DNA of 32,304 bases from a virus. Position numbers and translations under genes: made by a program. This document shows positions 2,437-23,270 of this stretch, piece after piece (within the stretch, counting starts at the first letter, position 1; the number at the start of each line of letters is the position of its first letter). A model generated the notes under the pieces. That model was not told the origin of the DNA, made no database searches, and saw nothing but the letters and a program-made list of their open reading frames with translations. The stretch spans positions 1 through 32,304 of IMG/VR virus record IMGVR_UViG_3300008012_000091; one strand, given 5' to 3'.

Positions 2437-2679
2437 TTATTTCAATATTCTTATAATTAATCCACGAGGTGTTAAATCTTTATTGAGCCCATTTTTACCG
2501 CCCTCAACTGATTTTTTAATATAACCTAATTCAACAAGTTTTCTTAGATGAAGGTCAATGGTTGATATGCTAACACTTAGTTCTTTTGCTATATCTTTTT
2601 TATAAAACTTTTGAGTGTCCTTACTTTTCAGTAAGGTTATTAGTTTAAATGTTTGTGGTTTTAGTTCTTTATATTTCAT
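2437..2679 (-). CDS. Winged-helix DNA-binding regulator
   Basis: An 80-aa protein. Residues about 25-50 (FYKKDIAKELSVSISTIDLHLRKLVELGYI) form a clear helix-turn-helix followed by a wing (KKSVEGGKNG). This is the ArsR/MarR/LexA-like fold used by small repressors and activators. It stands alone between two related promoter-like sequences (B upstream, A downstream), which makes it a good candidate for the protein that binds them. It has no Shine-Dalgarno, and tandem 10-bp repeats lie 15-38 bases upstream of its start. Whether it represses or activates cannot be told. Confidence 0.75.
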   Translation of the reverse strand: MKYKELKPQTFKLITLLKSKDTQKFYKKDIAKELSVSISTIDLHLRKLVELGYIKKSVEGGKNGLNKDLTPRGLIIRILK

Positions 2680-3541: not shown

Positions 3542-4810
3542 TCAAAAATTATTAATTTCGGTAAATCTGCCGAACTCACCCTCAAGCTGAAAATGAATAT
3601 CTCCCGACTTACCATCCCTATTTTTAGCTAAAATCCACGTGCCAGCCATAGAATAGTAACTATCTTTCCTCTTATCTTCCTCTAGCTCTTCTCTATGAAT
3701 AATGATTGCTACATCTGCATTTTTTTCGATAGCACTTGAACCCTCGAAGTGTGCAAGTGTCGGTTTATCAACCCCACCTCTGTTAATTTGTGCCGCTGCA
3801 ATCATGGCAATATCAAACTTCTGCGCCATTGCCTTTAATGCAACCACGTTCTTGCTTATCTCCATTGTTGCCGAATTAGTATTCTGATTATCATAAGTTA
3901 TGTGTTGCACATAATCGATAAATACCGCATCAACTGGTTCCTCCGCTATCTTGTTTTTAATTAACCTCTCTATATCCTTCGCCTTCATCCCAGTCGAATC
4001 ATTAATATAAACGCCAAGATTAGACAACTCCTCCTCCGCATTTATTACCTTTTCATAATCCGCAGCATTCAAAAGGTTTTTAGCTATCTTCCAAGATGGC
4101 ACTGACGAGATATTAGAAAGAAATTTGAATGTCACTCTATCGCTATCAACCTCAAGCGAGACAAAAAGGCACTTTTTACCATTTCTTGATGCCCTTAAAG
4201 CTATATCCTGAAGAAGCGTAGTTTTTCCAACTGCCGTTCTCGCTCCTATAATTGCCAATTGTTTGGAATAGAAACCCCCATTCAGTTTGTGATCCAAGTT
4301 AAGAAATCCAGTCGATACGATATTCGGCTTAACTCCTAACTTCCTCCTATCCTTTATACCATCAATGACATTGGAGATATGTTGAGTCGGCTTAATGTTG
4401 CTTTGTATATCCAACTTCGCTAATTCGTTGTCAATTAAAGCTGTTATCTTCTCTATATTGTCACCTTCTTCTAATTTCAATCTTGAATCAAGCAGAACTG
4501 CGTTTAGCTCTCTTTTCTTCCAGAAGTCAATTAGAATAAAAGCATAATCTCTTACTCGAAGCATGCCGTCAGTATTTAATATTTCATTTCTAGCTTCAGA
4601 GTTGTCACCAAAAAATTCAACAATACTAATCACATCAACTGGTTTTTCGTTGTTAAGCTTTTCAGTAATAAAATTATATAGATTAGCATGCAGTTCTTGC
4701 GCGAAGTGCTTAGCTTCTAAGATGTCACTTACTTTGTAAAAAGCATCGTTATTCATTATGATTTTGCAAAGTAAAGCTCTTTCCGCTTCTAAGTTATAAA
4801 AATTAGTCAT
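3542..4810 (-). CDS. dnaB: DnaB-type replicative helicase
   Basis: A 422-aa RecA-fold helicase. Residues 1-100 match the DnaB N-terminal helical domain (NLEAERALLCKII). The ATPase domain has Walker A GARTAVGKTT (189-198), Walker B DAVFIDYVQ (294-302), a sensor/DNA-loop region QINRG (342-346) and an AKNRDGKSG loop (395-403) that contains the likely arginine finger. Such hexamers unwind the fork ahead of the polymerase. It is slightly shorter than bacterial DnaB, as is common in phages. Its start overlaps the stop of the initiator-like gene by one base (TAATG). This gives an initiator-helicase pair like lambda O-P or P22 18-12. Confidence 0.92.
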   Translation of the reverse strand: MTNFYNLEAERALLCKIIMNNDAFYKVSDILEAKHFAQELHANLYNFITEKLNNEKPVDVISIVEFFGDNSEARNEILNTDGMLRVRDYAFILIDFWKKRELNAVLLDSRLKLEEGDNIEKITALIDNELAKLDIQSNIKPTQHISNVIDGIKDRRKLGVKPNIVSTGFLNLDHKLNGGFYSKQLAIIGARTAVGKTTLLQDIALRASRNGKKCLFVSLEVDSDRVTFKFLSNISSVPSWKIAKNLLNAADYEKVINAEEELSNLGVYINDSTGMKAKDIERLIKNKIAEEPVDAVFIDYVQHITYDNQNTNSATMEISKNVVALKAMAQKFDIAMIAAAQINRGGVDKPTLAHFEGSSAIEKNADVAIIIHREELEEDKRKDSYYSMAGTWILAKNRDGKSGDIHFQLEGEFGRFTEINNF

Positions 4811-5607
4811 TAGAATTTTGGTTCAAAGTTAGTAATATTAAGCTCTTTAGAGATCTTGTCTTTTATTTCATTTCTCAAATCAATATCAAGATTTTGATAC
4901 TTTTTAAAACTATCTGCATTGGTAAACCATATTTGCGCTTTATTTGGCGTAGAAATGATAATTTGAGTTATTAAGCTATGTCCTATCATTTTATTAATAA
5001 AATCAACTGTGTGTGTATTTGTGTTTGATTTAGACGTATTCTGATTATCGGTTTTAGCTTCCCAAGTCAAAAGCTTCTGTTTCCAGTTCTTAACTTGATT
5101 TCCTTTTGCATCTTTCCAATCACCAGCAGAATAATAATCAAAAAACTTCTTGGCATCTACTGAATTATTTCTTTCTTTGCAATAATCTTGAACATCCTGC
5201 AAAATTGGCGGCACAAATCTTTTTTTATTATTACTTTCTTTTTTACTTTCCTTCTTACTATCACTATCACTCTTACTATCACTATCTGCTAGATTTGCTA
5301 ACTTTTGCTTGCATTTGCTAGCATTTGCTACCTTTTGCTTACCACCTTTCGAGCCAGCTATTCGCCTAACTTCACAAGTGTTCCTATACTTTTCTTCATC
5401 TCTTAAAAATTGGTTTAGAAACGGCTCGAAAACGATAGAAATAAGATTGTCTTCTGGTAACGATTTAGTTTCTTGATAGTTAGCTATGGCCTTAAAAAGC
5501 TCTCCAGCTTTTTCATTATTTAGTTTTTTTAAAACTGATAAACTATCTTTATGAATTATAAAGCTTTTACGATTGATTATTTGATTTGTCATTTTGATAC
5601 ATTTCAT
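4810..5607 (-). CDS. DUF6291-like replication initiator candidate
   Basis: A 265-aa protein. Residues about 10-95 (SFIIHKDSLSVLKKLNNEKAG to a basic RRIAGSKGGK) resemble the DUF6291 domain found in phage replication modules. A low-complexity Ser/Asp/Glu/Lys linker (about 105-135) follows. A second block (about 138-185: FVPPILQDVQDYC, FFDYYSAGDWKD, NWKQKLLTWEAK) is typical of initiators encoded beside DnaB-type helicases. The linker DNA carries five 10-bp iterons, a likely origin. The gene overlaps the preceding 67-aa gene and the helicase start. Neither the first ATG (5607) nor the next one (5592, MTNQII) has a Shine-Dalgarno, so the start is uncertain. Confidence 0.7.
   Translation of the reverse strand: MKCIKMTNQIINRKSFIIHKDSLSVLKKLNNEKAGELFKAIANYQETKSLPEDNLISIVFEPFLNQFLRDEEKYRNTCEVRRIAGSKGGKQKVANASKCKQKLANLADSDSKSDSDSKKESKKESNNKKRFVPPILQDVQDYCKERNNSVDAKKFFDYYSAGDWKDAKGNQVKNWKQKLLTWEAKTDNQNTSKSNTNTHTVDFINKMIGHSLITQIIISTPNKAQIWFTNADSFKKYQNLDIDLRNEIKDKISKELNITNFEPKF
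5291..5340. repeat. Five iterons with 10-bp period, candidate replication origin
   Basis: TTTGCT begins at 5294, 5304, 5314, 5324 and 5334. The 10-mer consensus is close to NNWTTTGCTW. The array lies inside the initiator-like gene, next to a pyrimidine-rich tract (5221-5290) with repeated ACTATC and ACTTTC. The period is not a multiple of three, so the repeats are read in all three frames and cannot be explained by a protein repeat alone. Confidence 0.65.
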
Positions 5608-9764: not shown

Positions 9765-11054
9765 ATGGAAATTGACATCCCTTTTAACTGGACACCAAGA
9801 GACTACCAAAAACCCCTTTGGGCAGCTTTACAGGAATATAAAAGAGCAATATATGTCTGGCATCGAAGAGCTGGAAAAGATTTGTTGGGCTTAAACTACT
9901 TAATTAAAAGCGCAATACTAGATACGCCCGGGACATACTGGCATGTATTCCCAACTTACAATCAAGGCAAGAAAGCAATCTGGACAGAAACTGACATCAA
10001 TGGCCGCAAATATCTTGACTATATCCCGAAAGAGCTAATAGCGTCGAAGAACGATCAAGAAATGAAGATTAAATTCTTTAACGGTTCTGTGTATCAAATT
10101 GTAGGCTCTGATAATGTGGATGCTTTAAGGGGAGCGGGTATCAAAGGAGCTGTATTTAGTGAGTACGCAGAGCAGAGGCCGACAGCTTGGCAAGTGATCC
10201 AACCTATGCTTATGGCAACGAATGGCTGGGCATTGTTTAACTTTACGCCCAAAGGTCACAATCATGCTTACGAGTTATGGGAGATGGCAAAGAAGAATGA
10301 TAATTGGTTTACTCAAATATTAACGGTTGATGATACAAATGGACAAGTATTTACCACCGAGCAAATACAACAAATAAAACAAGAGTTTATAGAGCAAGGA
10401 AAGACTTTAGACTTGTTTAATCAGGAATATTACTGTTCTTTTAATTCAGCGGTCGAGGGGGCTTTTTATAGTGAGCAACTAAACGAGGCTAAAAAAGATG
10501 GTAGAATTACTTCAATGCCTCATGAATCTAATTTACTAGTTCAAACGTGGTGGGATCTTGGGGTAAGTGACGCAACGGCGATTTGGTTTACTCAGCAAGT
10601 AGGAAATGAGATTAGAATTATTGACTTCTTGGAAGACTCAGGCAAAGGGCTTGATTTCTATATCAAAGAAGTAAAAGCAAAACCCTACATATACGAGCAA
10701 CACAACGCACCACATGATATTGCTGTCAGAGAGTTTACTAGCGGTAAAGCAAGAATTGATATTGCACATGACTTAGGAATTGATTTTGACATTGTGCCAA
10801 ATATCCCCGTTCAAGACGGCATCAACGCTGTACGATCCGTATTCAATAGATGCGTCTTTGATGAGGATAAATGTAAACAAGGGCTACTAGCTTTGCGTAA
10901 CTACAAAAAACAATTTGACGAAATGAAAAACACGTTTAAACTCAAACCACTACACGACTGGTCTTCTAACGCTGCTGATTCGTTTAGATATATGGCAGTA
11001 GGTATAAGCGAAAGAAAACCTAAATATTATCAACCTGAATACGCAATTAAGTAA
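9765..11054 (+). CDS. terL: Terminase large subunit
   Basis: A 429-aa packaging motor. The ATPase domain has a Walker A-like HRRAGKD (33-39), Walker B GAVFSEYAE (128-136) and the coupling motif FTPKG (160-164). The nuclease domain begins with WWDLG (262-266; candidate metal-binding D264), and a further acidic site lies near the C-terminal NAADSFRY (about 408-415). It drives ATP-dependent DNA translocation into the prohead through the portal and cuts the concatemer. Length and motif order are those of the Terminase_6 group. Its stop overlaps the next start (TAATGG). Confidence 0.9.
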   Translation: MEIDIPFNWTPRDYQKPLWAALQEYKRAIYVWHRRAGKDLLGLNYLIKSAILDTPGTYWHVFPTYNQGKKAIWTETDINGRKYLDYIPKELIASKNDQEMKIKFFNGSVYQIVGSDNVDALRGAGIKGAVFSEYAEQRPTAWQVIQPMLMATNGWALFNFTPKGHNHAYELWEMAKKNDNWFTQILTVDDTNGQVFTTEQIQQIKQEFIEQGKTLDLFNQEYYCSFNSAVEGAFYSEQLNEAKKDGRITSMPHESNLLVQTWWDLGVSDATAIWFTQQVGNEIRIIDFLEDSGKGLDFYIKEVKAKPYIYEQHNAPHDIAVREFTSGKARIDIAHDLGIDFDIVPNIPVQDGINAVRSVFNRCVFDEDKCKQGLLALRNYKKQFDEMKNTFKLKPLHDWSSNAADSFRYMAVGISERKPKYYQPEYAIK

Positions 11055-19831: not shown

Positions 19832-21420
19832 TGGTAATGATTCCAAGAAGTCAGGGTGTAACAGTAGGAAAGACAACCGAAACTGGCCTTGCGCCAAAAT
19901 CTATAGCGCAAACTCAAATAATACCTAACGCACTAGCTAATCTAGGCGGCACTATTTCATCAATAGGTATTAATAAACTCCAACAAGAACAAGCCGAGCA
20001 AAGAAAGGCTCAAGAAGAGTTTCAAGCGACACAAGCTTTGGATTTTAGAAATAAGCTTAGAGAGTTTGATAATCAAGCAAAAATTAGATTATCTGAATCA
20101 GCTAACGATCCAGAGATTATAAACGGTGCAAAAGAAAAAATAAGCGAAGAAAGGAAGAATTATTTTGAAGAGTTAAGCGCATCTTACGGTGACGACAAAA
20201 GACTCCAAAAGGTTCTTCAACAAGAATACGAAACCAGTCAGGTAAGCTTAGATTTTAGTGTCGATAAAGAGCTATCTAACAAGAGAAAGACTTATGCAAA
20301 GAACGCTCTTTATAGCACGGTTTTCGACTTAGAAAATAGGTTTAATAACGCCAAAAGAGAAGAAGATTTAATTCAAGTAAGTCAGGATTTAAGCGACACA
20401 TTAAATTTAGGTTTAAAGCAAAACCTTGTGAGTGTAAAGGAGATAAACTCTATTGAAAATAGGATAAGAGAGTCAAGGAAGAGAAAAGAGAAGGTGCAGG
20501 CCGATTTACTAGAAAAGGCTCAAAAACTAAGGTTTAGCGATCCGTGGAAGTTTGTCGATACCTTCGATAAAGAAGATGTGCCAGAAATTGATTTAGTAAA
20601 CGTTGAAAACTCCGCTGAGAGCCTAGAAAAAAGAATTGAATTTGTTTCAAAAAAAAGCGAGCAATATCAAATTGATATGCCCCTGCTTAATAAAAATGAA
20701 TCCGAAGCTTTAATTAAAACACTAGAATCAGCTACCCCAGAGAATGCAACAGGTTATTTAAATAGTTTAACGAGCAATATCACGGAAGAGCAAAAAGACT
20801 TATTAGCTAAAAACATATTTGAAGAAAATAAATCACTTGGTTTAGCGATTACCCTTGCCAATGAGGACGGCAAAACATCTTCGGAAATACTATCTGGTAG
20901 TAAAGCTATAAAAAGTAAAGTGGTTACAATGCCTAGTCCTAATACTATGAGGAATAAGTTCTTAGATATCGCTGGAGACGCTATTGTTCAACAGGATTAT
21001 AGGGAGGCTTCAATAGAGGCTATAACAAATATATACGCTCACAAAGCCGTTTCTAATAATATCAATGATACTAACACAGATCAAGAACTAATAGAGAAGT
21101 CAATTAAACAAGTTTTTGGTGATATAATCGAAGTCAACGATTCGAAGGTTGTGGGTTTTAGAAAGAATGACGGTAAATTTATCAGTGAAAGTGAGTTTGA
21201 GGATCTTTTTGATGGACTAGACAGGGCTACTATTATGAGTGTGCAAGGTGATGTTCCTAGAATAGCTAATGGTAGTGAATTAAGTGAGGATGCCTTAAAA
21301 GATGCCCAGCTTGTTGTCGTGGGTGATGGGCTTTACACTATAAGTTTATATGACGAATTTGCCGTAGATAAACAAGGGAATCCTTTTGTGCTTAACCTTA
21401 AAGAAATTTATAACAGATAA
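19831..21420 (+). CDS. Internal virion protein (T7 gp15-like ejection protein)
   Basis: A 529-aa, almost fully helical and highly charged protein with long coiled-coil stretches (about 50-240), lacking Cys-rich or enzymatic motifs. It opens with VMIPRSQGVTVGKTTETGLAP. Position after the gp14-like and before the large gp16-like genes identifies it as the gp15-type tube protein that spans the periplasm during DNA ejection. Sequence similarity in this family is low, so the call depends on context. It starts and ends with one-base overlaps (AATAATGG; GATAATGT). Confidence 0.68.
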   Translation: MVMIPRSQGVTVGKTTETGLAPKSIAQTQIIPNALANLGGTISSIGINKLQQEQAEQRKAQEEFQATQALDFRNKLREFDNQAKIRLSESANDPEIINGAKEKISEERKNYFEELSASYGDDKRLQKVLQQEYETSQVSLDFSVDKELSNKRKTYAKNALYSTVFDLENRFNNAKREEDLIQVSQDLSDTLNLGLKQNLVSVKEINSIENRIRESRKRKEKVQADLLEKAQKLRFSDPWKFVDTFDKEDVPEIDLVNVENSAESLEKRIEFVSKKSEQYQIDMPLLNKNESEALIKTLESATPENATGYLNSLTSNITEEQKDLLAKNIFEENKSLGLAITLANEDGKTSSEILSGSKAIKSKVVTMPSPNTMRNKFLDIAGDAIVQQDYREASIEAITNIYAHKAVSNNINDTNTDQELIEKSIKQVFGDIIEVNDSKVVGFRKNDGKFISESEFEDLFDGLDRATIMSVQGDVPRIANGSELSEDALKDAQLVVVGDGLYTISLYDEFAVDKQGNPFVLNLKEIYNR

Positions 21421-23270
21421 TGTCTTTAGCTACGTTTATAAAAAAAGAGACAGCCCCAATAGGCAATCAACCAATCCAGCAAGAGCCTTCATCTTTTACA
21501 GATGTATTATCTAAGCAGTTTAGGTCTTTTAGGGATAATTTCATCACAACATCTAGATCAAACCTTATCAACGATCAAAAATCAGAGCGGGCTAAACTGT
21601 TCGAGGAAATAGAGGGTGGAAAATTAGACCCAGCGAGAGCTAGTAATTATAAGCCTTTTGAGGAACCAAGTGCGCAAGCCGTTTTGGAGTTGGGGCCTAT
21701 TCACATTTCTAACATGAGGAAGAAGCACGATGAAAAATATATAGAAGATTATATTGCCGAGCTAAAACAAAAAGAGCCTGAGAAATACAAGAATATTTTG
21801 ACAAAAGAAGAATTAGAAGACCAAGCGAGGAAAACGGCCAAGTTGTCAAAGTTAGAAGCTCAACAAGCCTCGGCAAGATCTGGTACATTTTCTGGCGTTT
21901 CTGCTAATTTATTAGGTGGTATAGGGGCAGTTGCTACCGATCCTATTAATATTGCTGTACTGCCATTTGGGGCGGCTAGAGGTGCTGGGGTGTTAAGAAC
22001 AGTTTTAATTGAGGCTGGAGTTAATGCAACAGCAGAATTGGCAACCCAGCCATTCGTGTCTAAGTGGCAAAAAGAATTGGGCGAAGATTATGGGTTTAAA
22101 GAGGTGGTGGAAAATGTCGGATTTGCCGCTTTATTTGGCGGCTCTATGGCTGGAGCGTTGAAAGGAGCTAAACCGTCTGCTATGCTTATTTATAATAAGA
22201 TGTCTAAAATTAAAAATCTAAAACCTTCTCAAAAGATAGCGGCATCTTATATGTCAAAGGTAGCTCATTTAAAAGAGGCTATGCCGTTCGTTAGAAGTAA
22301 AACACTTGTTGAAACCAAGAAGCATTACGACAGCGTAAAAGCAGCGTCAGAAGCTCTTGAAAATGGAAAAAAAGTGAAGCCTGATGATATTAAAGTCACG
22401 GAGTCAGAATTTCTTGCTTTAGATACAAAGCCAAAAAGAGGCGACACACAAATTGAAAAAGCCAGATTAGCAGAGCTTGAAAGGTTTAAAAAAGATAAAG
22501 ACCCTTTGGTTTTAGAAGCCTCTAAATTTGATAATGTTGATGATTTTATAGAATCTGTTCCAATTAAAAAAGGATCTTTAGATGGCGCTATGGGGCATAG
22601 ACCAACAAAAACAGGTGCAAACGCTAGTAATATTACACAAGAAGTTTCTGAGATGGGTTTTCCTGATGATTTTTATAAAAATCCTCAATACTACGAGGAT
22701 ATGAGTGATAAATCTGTCAAAGAATCTTTTAACGCATTAACGAATGTTAAAGGAAGTCCTGATGCGGAGATAACGATTTACAGAGCATCACCAAAAAAAG
22801 AATTAAGAACGGGAGACTGGGTTACTTTGTCGAAAGAATATGCAAAAGGCGAAAGTTTAGCAGAAGGGGTAAAGGTTCATTCTTTTAAAGTAAAGGCCAA
22901 AGAGATAGAGTTTGCAGGAGATAGTATTAATGAGTTTGGATATTGGGGTCATAACAGTAAAACAAAAGAACAGCTAACAGAAGCATTTAATAAAGCCAAA
23001 AAAGAACCAACCCAGAATCAACCCAGAGTCAACCCAGAGTCATCCAATAAAGACGTATTAGAACCCGACTTTATGGATAGGTTGTTAGATGAAAGCAACA
23101 ACCCTCAATTCATACAAGCTGAAGATATTAATTTTAGAGCATTAGCAGAAGAAAACCCGGACTTGCTAATTTCCTTAGAAGATGGAGAATTTAGGATAGG
23201 AGAATTACTAGAAAGATTCGATAATGACGAAAACTTTTTAAAGCAAATAACAACTTGTACAATAGGATAA
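21420..23270 (+). CDS. Ejection protein with ADP-ribosyltransferase-like domain
   Basis: A 616-aa protein. The first 150 residues are charged and helical. A Gly/Ala-rich membrane-active stretch (about 155-250: NLLGGIGAVATDPINIAVLP, FAALFGGSMAGALKGA) is typical of internal virion proteins. Residues about 390-515 form a separate domain: GHRP (392-395), ITIYRAS (451-457, R455), GDWVTLSKEYA (465-475, S471), then DSINEFGYWG (501-510, E505). This is the R-S-E layout of arginine-type ADP-ribosyltransferases. A short repeat linker and an acidic C-terminus follow. It would enter the host with the DNA, as T4 Alt does. Activity and target are inference. Confidence 0.72.
   Translation: MSLATFIKKETAPIGNQPIQQEPSSFTDVLSKQFRSFRDNFITTSRSNLINDQKSERAKLFEEIEGGKLDPARASNYKPFEEPSAQAVLELGPIHISNMRKKHDEKYIEDYIAELKQKEPEKYKNILTKEELEDQARKTAKLSKLEAQQASARSGTFSGVSANLLGGIGAVATDPINIAVLPFGAARGAGVLRTVLIEAGVNATAELATQPFVSKWQKELGEDYGFKEVVENVGFAALFGGSMAGALKGAKPSAMLIYNKMSKIKNLKPSQKIAASYMSKVAHLKEAMPFVRSKTLVETKKHYDSVKAASEALENGKKVKPDDIKVTESEFLALDTKPKRGDTQIEKARLAELERFKKDKDPLVLEASKFDNVDDFIESVPIKKGSLDGAMGHRPTKTGANASNITQEVSEMGFPDDFYKNPQYYEDMSDKSVKESFNALTNVKGSPDAEITIYRASPKKELRTGDWVTLSKEYAKGESLAEGVKVHSFKVKAKEIEFAGDSINEFGYWGHNSKTKEQLTEAFNKAKKEPTQNQPRVNPESSNKDVLEPDFMDRLLDESNNPQFIQAEDINFRALAEENPDLLISLEDGEFRIGELLERFDNDENFLKQITTCTIG
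23009..23041 (+). repeat. Three tandem 11-bp repeats in an ejection-protein gene
   Basis: AACCCAGARTC three times (23009-23019, 23020-23030, 23031-23041), the first copy with one A/G change. Total 33 bp keeps the frame, but each copy is read in a different frame (TQNQ, PRVN, PESS). It encodes the linker just after the ART-like domain and looks like recent slippage. Confidence 0.7.

Follow-up and report, generated by a model that had tools for sequence, protein, structure and literature searches.

The DUF6291 locus

The window, i.e. the whole stretch of 32,304 nucleotides analysed here (IMG/VR record IMGVR_UViG_3300008012_000091), carries on its minus strand the gene of a DUF6291 protein, abutted by that of a DnaB-like replicative helicase. 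A short array of phased repeats and a tract of biased composition lie within the DUF6291 gene. The features of the locus are the following.

3542-4810, minus strand: gene of a DnaB-like replicative helicase, abutting the initiator gene (Pfam DnaB_C, 3.1e-51)
4810-5607, minus strand: coding sequence of a 265-residue DUF6291 protein, the proposed origin-binding initiator (Pfam PF19808, E-value 2.6e-18)
4813-5220, minus strand: C-terminal half of the DUF6291 protein, with a KH-like fold at its end (residues about 192-265; AF2 model)
5221-5290, minus strand: C-poor, A-rich tract with GATAGT/GAAAGT repeats on the coding strand, a proposed unwinding element
5285-5290, minus strand: AGCAGA, a sixth and degenerate copy of the unit, 9 bp further along (read off the sequence)
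5294-5339, minus strand: the proposed iterons, an array of five AGCAAA units each exactly 10 bp from the next
5332-5565, minus strand: DUF6291 domain (residues 15-92), the proposed DNA-binding domain (profile match and model)
5341-5367, minus strand: signature segment RRIAGSKGG (residues 81-89), of class R..AG (class-array match)

The array lies ~270 bp into the DUF6291 gene. Its units read TTTGCT on the plus strand, at positions 5294, 5304, 5314, 5324 and 5334, and AGCAAA on the coding (minus) strand, where the whole array reads GGKQKVANASKCKQKLANLAD. TRF delineates a 10-bp array at 5287-5339 and an (ACTATC)x5 repeat at 5257-5286. This is the sole run of four or more copies of any hexamer at a constant lag of 8-30 bp in the whole window, and dinucleotide shuffles of the latter (n=200) yield longest hexamer runs of 2 or 3 over the same lags, as compared to the 5 observed. 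AGCAAA/TTTGCT forms no other run of four or more in the window at lags of 9-12 with up to one mismatch, and no second array of this motif was found there. The adjacent tract contains 39 A, 17 G, 13 T and a single C on the coding strand, reading SDSKSDSDSKKESKKES; its A+T content is no higher than that of its surroundings.

A preliminary description of the locus, made from the sequence alone, had reported five TTTGCT copies 10 bp apart in the linker of a DUF6291-like protein, encoded beside a DnaB-type helicase, together with a pyrimidine-rich tract at 5221-5290. The positions and spacing of the copies hold exactly, as do both gene assignments, by the Pfam matches listed above, and the location in a linker (residues 92-123, of low confidence in the AF2 model). 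The tract also holds, with one C out of 70 on the coding strand and the (ACTATC)x5 repeat identified by TRF.

The proposed initiator protein and its neighbours

PF19808 matches residues 15-92 of the window protein with 66.4 bits, versus a curated cut-off of 27.2; Pfam lists DUF6291 as a family of unknown function. The AF2 model comprises a three-helix N-terminal domain, the low-confidence linker and a folded C-terminal half (136-264). The model predicts the third, long helix of the DUF6291 domain to end with the signature. RRIAGSKGG at this position is proposed to be the specificity element, an inference drawn from covariation in the absence of binding data. The fold of the DUF6291 domain has no clear match among the solved structures of the PDB, and its matches in a viral structure library are mostly other DUF6291 entries, some of them named DnaD-like or replisome organizer. 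In the literature searched, mostly without subscription journals, no earlier description of DUF6291, of the array sequence or of these in-gene iterons was found.

Several family assignments were considered and rejected. Scanned against Pfam and PHROGs, the window protein matches only DUF6291 and PHROGs of unknown function, and membership of the lambda O family is not supported; O-like PHROGs are matched by some other A1 members. A Rep_3-type iteron plasmid initiator is likewise not supported, no Rep family appearing in the Pfam scan at E-values up to 0.1. The C-terminal domain resembles in fold the Vibrio cholerae DnaB loader DciA (8a3v chain C), with a middling Z score of 6.0. Kinship with DciA was rejected: PF05258 has no match in the window, and the profile-profile probability is 0.2%. 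The C-terminal half may serve in helicase recruitment, a role that remains unproven. To note, its KH-like domain (window 4813-5013, minus strand) is common to L019 and L255 (11-bp set) and to L004 (AACCCA class); the array classes thus exchange C-terminal modules.

The genes downstream encode a helicase, a loader or a primase-helicase in about 39 of 62 DUF6291 loci. A DnaB-like gene is found in 21 of the 62, while the first long ORFs of the remaining loci include 11 primase-helicases, five DnaC-like loaders and two lambda P-like proteins. The same kinds of neighbour occur in cultured phages, where the DUF6291 gene is mostly annotated as hypothetical.

The array is selected as DNA

The 10-bp period is not a codon multiple, and the preliminary description had taken its reading in all three frames as a sign of selection on DNA. 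This is supported by synonymous shuffles, spacing controls, a consensus shared between codon phases, mobile arrays and the co-change of array class and protein signature. When the gene is shuffled synonymously, with the peptide fixed, a run of five is obtained once in 20,000 trials. The comparison was extended to a non-redundant set of 69 DUF6291 genes, retrieved through similarity at the protein level, mostly with the domain alone and for the rest via the whole window protein. Lag-10 periodicity exceeds that of synonymous shuffles (p<0.05) in 35 of these 69 genes, as compared to 0-5 genes for lags 7-9 and 11-14. In the AACCCA and TACC classes, which are nearest to the window, individual genes do not reach significance in the lag-10 test, because direct units, inverted units and 9-bp steps occur together in their arrays.

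The 137 units of the AGCAAA class are distributed over the three codon phases (30, 51 and 56 units), and a single consensus, [T/A]AGCAAA[T/A]G, is found in all three. A T precedes AGCAAA in 0 of 104 units in the phase where it would create a TAG stop, versus 118 of 213 in the other two phases; some non-coding arrays carry this T in consecutive phases.

The spacing was further explored by scanning IMG/VR for four AGCAAA at a fixed spacing, without any protein information. The ORFs at these places were then compared to a DUF6291 profile built from a tighter domain alignment (A4), which is matched at 1 of 35 places for 9 bp, 70 of 100 for 10 bp, 28 of 123 for 11 bp and 0 of 121 for 12 bp. The totals for 11 and 12 bp are lower bounds, of at least 123 and at least 121 places. 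The DUF6291 share differs strongly between 10 and 12 bp (Fisher, 6e-34), and the 35 stretches at 9 bp are mainly codon repeats such as TEQTEQ or KANKAN. Pfam identifies DUF6291 in 53 of the 57 non-redundant 10-bp ORFs (the window protein included) and in 31 of the 63 non-redundant 11-bp ORFs, the remainder of the latter including DUF1376 and Lin1244_N. Judged by their signatures, the 10- and 11-bp arrays belong mostly to different DUF6291 subgroups.

Outside DUF6291, AGCAAA arrays also occur at 12 bp, 18 of 85 ORFs being initiator-like with an R..[AS]G motif. The strict 10-11-bp phasing is therefore a property of DUF6291 and not of every AGCAAA array. As a separate observation, initiator-like proteins without a DUF6291 profile match (L154, L165, L206, L210, L258 and others) display R..AG..GG followed by AGCAAA arrays, and it is possible that R..AG..GG is a portable recognition element.

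Two explanations that do without selection on DNA were weighed against these results. According to the first, the linker is a protein feature, a repetitive lysine/glutamine/alanine/asparagine segment of which the DNA repeat is a by-product. The predicted disorder of the linker and its 10-residue peptide period speak for it. Against it, peptide-preserving shuffles lose the run (the 1 in 20,000 above), one DNA consensus spans three codon phases, codon-multiple spacings (9 and 12 bp) are nearly absent from DUF6291 genes, non-coding arrays exist and relatives replace the peptide altogether, all of which leaves this explanation with very little plausibility.

The second is neutral slippage, tandem duplications being common in linkers because they are unopposed there. 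Tandem arrays do arise in this way, and the hexanucleotide tract is microsatellite-like. Nevertheless, identical hexamers are found in diverged genes with different spacer bases and fixed 10- or 11-bp steps, the array class matches the protein, and frame-keeping events should favour 9 or 12 bp; slippage is thus also a very poor candidate. On comparative evidence, the array is selected as DNA and the linker peptide tracks the DNA. The preliminary description had named as refuting a peptide that is kept when its phasing disappears. No such case was encountered; on the contrary, the peptide changes while phasing or motif persists.

Array classes and the matching protein signature

In close relatives of the window, the layout is preserved and the motif differs. 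Their arrays are of AACC[CG]A or TACC type, with direct and inverted units, and occupy the same linker, followed by the same tract, the peptide being replaced altogether. In the 69-gene set, 27 genes belong to the AGCAAA class, 22 to the AACC class and 10 to the TACC class; the other 10 are without class.

The end of the DUF6291 domain follows this classification in 59 of 59 genes: R..AG accompanies AGCAAA (27/27), N..NG accompanies AACC (22/22) and N...KR[WYH] accompanies TACC (10/10). The patterns were read from the alignment and then scored as defined classes. They were thus defined after the alignment had been viewed, which is why the later sets matter. Genes picked by the AGCAAA motif alone exhibit R..[AS]G in 38 of 52 tails, and those picked by the AACCCA motif alone exhibit N..NG in 31 of 38, the lineages of both sets being partly shared with the first. 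Among cultured phages (n=13), the signature fits the array class in all 10 that could be classified. Cultured DUF6291 phages include Vibrio phage D478, with an AGCAAA array, and Pseudoalteromonas phage PS_L5, with an AACCCA array. The classes are interleaved on the domain tree, with at least seven forced changes for AGCAAA; this tree rests on few columns and is poorly resolved.

Signature and array are adjacent, and recombination could therefore move both together. Adjacency alone as the cause of their co-inheritance is opposed by two kinds of arrangement in which the class match is kept. In L416, L445 and L451, most of the array lies in a loop of the folded domain, and in L063/L111 (R..SG) and L023/L073 (R..AG) the array lies outside the gene. 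Reading the arrays without ORF with an alternative code (TAG as Q) did not result in DUF6291 genes. Taken together, these results make it very likely that the array functions as DNA and is recognized by the protein in whose gene it lies, although binding data are lacking.

Two further rearrangements were observed. In L062 (5653-6603, on a contig shared with L543), an insertion of ~100 residues separates the DUF6291 domain from the array, which has moved with its tract. In L046 (1721-2419), array and peptide are duplicated within the gene, KAKVSKSKQSLAKVSKVTDEE being present twice.

A bolder reading treats the DUF6291 initiator and its origin as a cassette that can be swapped between phages and that obeys a simple recognition code. 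In this reading, the residues at the domain end, R..AG, N..NG or N...KR[WYH], would set which iteron is read, AGCAAA, AACC[CG]A or TACC, respectively; R..AG..GG joined to other domains (DUF1376, Lin1244-type) would read AGCAAA arrays at 10-12 bp; and phages would repeatedly switch origin specificity by exchanging the element together with the adjacent encoded array. Considered jointly, these propositions are as likely to fail as to hold.

The C-poor tract beside the array

A dipeptide-like tract follows the array in 67 of the 69 genes. Its codon usage is extremely biased: Ser is encoded by AGT in 93% of cases versus 18% elsewhere, Asp by GAT in 98% versus 70%, and Asn by AAT in 98% versus 60%. 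The C content is 3% in the tract as compared to 17% elsewhere (67/69 genes). AGTAAT-type tracts also follow the non-coding arrays of L024, L040 and L063. In further contigs (L158, L202, L219, L224, L268 and similar ones), a non-coding array of four AGCAAA at 11 bp is found, in most cases followed by an (AAGAT)n tract, and the array-plus-tract layout is thereby repeated outside a gene.

A putative replication origin inside the initiator gene

Two criteria for an in-gene iteron origin are fulfilled, namely an array inside the initiator gene that is conserved as DNA, and an adjacent helicase or loader gene, the DnaB gene abutting that of the initiator. For a further one, an adjacent unwinding tract, the C-poor, strand-asymmetric composition and the strong codon bias in 67/69 genes speak in favour, but the A+T content does not exceed that of the flanking DNA. 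It is likely that 5221-5339 is the phage replication origin, located inside the gene of its own initiator; binding, melting and replication are inferred. The preliminary description had proposed such an origin, which comparative evidence makes likely without binding or replication data. The GC-skew check that it suggested provides no origin signal, as the skew of the window merely follows transcription.

In the proposed mechanism, each helical turn of the array would present one AGCAAA iteron, and DUF6291 molecules would occupy all five from the same face of the DNA. As inferred from covariation, the contact would involve the basic tail R..AGSKGG together with the end of helix 3. The phased nucleoprotein array would strain the duplex, and the adjacent C-poor, A-rich tract would open; this step is inferred from the layout and the codon bias, in analogy to lambda and SPP1. 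Finally, as inferred from gene order, the DnaB helicase encoded by the next gene would be brought in by the C-terminal half of the initiator. The peptide linker may act as a disordered tether that tolerates whatever the DNA must spell.

The main rival is an operator: the protein would bind the array in its own gene to repress or tune transcription of the early operon. A DNA-binding protein with sites in its own gene is a usual design of autoregulation, and selection on DNA and the class match also fit this explanation. It leaves unexplained, however, the conserved C-poor tract after the array and the frequent helicase, loader or primase neighbour. Moreover, operators are normally located at promoters, while the array is well inside the gene. 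An operator is thus considered unlikely. Another cis-acting site read by the DUF6291 protein, for packaging or partition, was also envisaged, since these sites, too, are repeat arrays and may be located within the gene of the protein that binds them. The neighbours are replication genes, not terminase or partition genes, and the terminase gene of the window is located at 9765-11054; this last alternative is very improbable.

Comparison with known origins

The origin reading can be set beside characterized systems. The lambda origin lies in gene O, as in relatives among Stx phages, with iterons in the middle of the gene, then an A+T-rich tract, and a helicase-delivery gene adjacent (PMC7466680). 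The window shares the initiator-binding repeats (here putative) in mid-gene and the helicase-related neighbour, its C-poor tract being the proposed counterpart of the A+T-rich one, and the lambda P-type loader found downstream in two DUF6291 loci adds to the likeness. In lambda, each iteron is an inverted repeat to which O binds as a dimer (PMC5043065), with four iterons per origin, whereas the window possesses five cores of 6 bp, in direct orientation and spaced by exactly 10 bp. The lambda initiator is O, while the proposed one of the window is a DUF6291 protein without a match to any lambda O family. The resemblance to lambda put forward in the preliminary description thus holds for layout and does not extend to ancestry; its remark that the repeats are shorter and phased as compared to lambda holds, with one unit per turn.

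In SPP1, oriL lies in gene 38 and combines direct repeats with an A+T-rich unwinding element, within a module encoding the replisome organizer gp38, the loader gp39 and the DnaB-type helicase gp40 (PMC6316719). Direct repeats inside the initiator gene and a DnaB-family helicase in the module are common to both, and the C-poor tract of the window would stand for the unwinding element. SPP1 has a second origin, oriR, whereas the window is without a second AGCAAA array, and, unlike in SPP1, no separate loader was identified beside the initiator. Iteron plasmids (P1, F, RK2, R6K and others) also carry direct repeats in helical phase, theirs with an A+T-rich flank, and disturbing this phasing can inactivate the origin (PMC5043065). 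Plasmid iterons are about 17-22 bp long and lie mostly outside the gene, as compared to one unit per single turn, inside the gene, in the window.

In-gene origins are already known from lambda and SPP1. The putative origin described here differs by its DUF6291 initiator, by unusually short iterons, one per turn, and by a match between protein and site that can be read from their sequences. If the origin reading is true, DUF6291 gains a function, and sequence alone would suffice to mark the origin in many phages, both uncultured and cultured (Vibrio, Aeromonas, Pseudoalteromonas, Shewanella). Single-residue swaps would then make it possible to test origin specificity and how it switches. The locus also offers a clean case of one DNA stretch carrying two codes, in which the peptide follows the DNA signal.

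Other repeats of the window

Two further repeats are present in the window. The first, at 23003-23042 on the plus strand, consists of 3.6 copies of the 11-bp repeat AGAATCAACCC within a late gene (21420-23270). Its units are AACCCA-like at 11 bp, which is not a codon multiple, though the initiator of the window is of the AGCAAA class; this remains unexplained. The second, at 2694-2717, consists of 2.4 copies of TAATTGAATC with a 10-bp period. On its minus-strand side it immediately precedes a small HTH gene (2437-2679, minus strand), of which it may be the operator.
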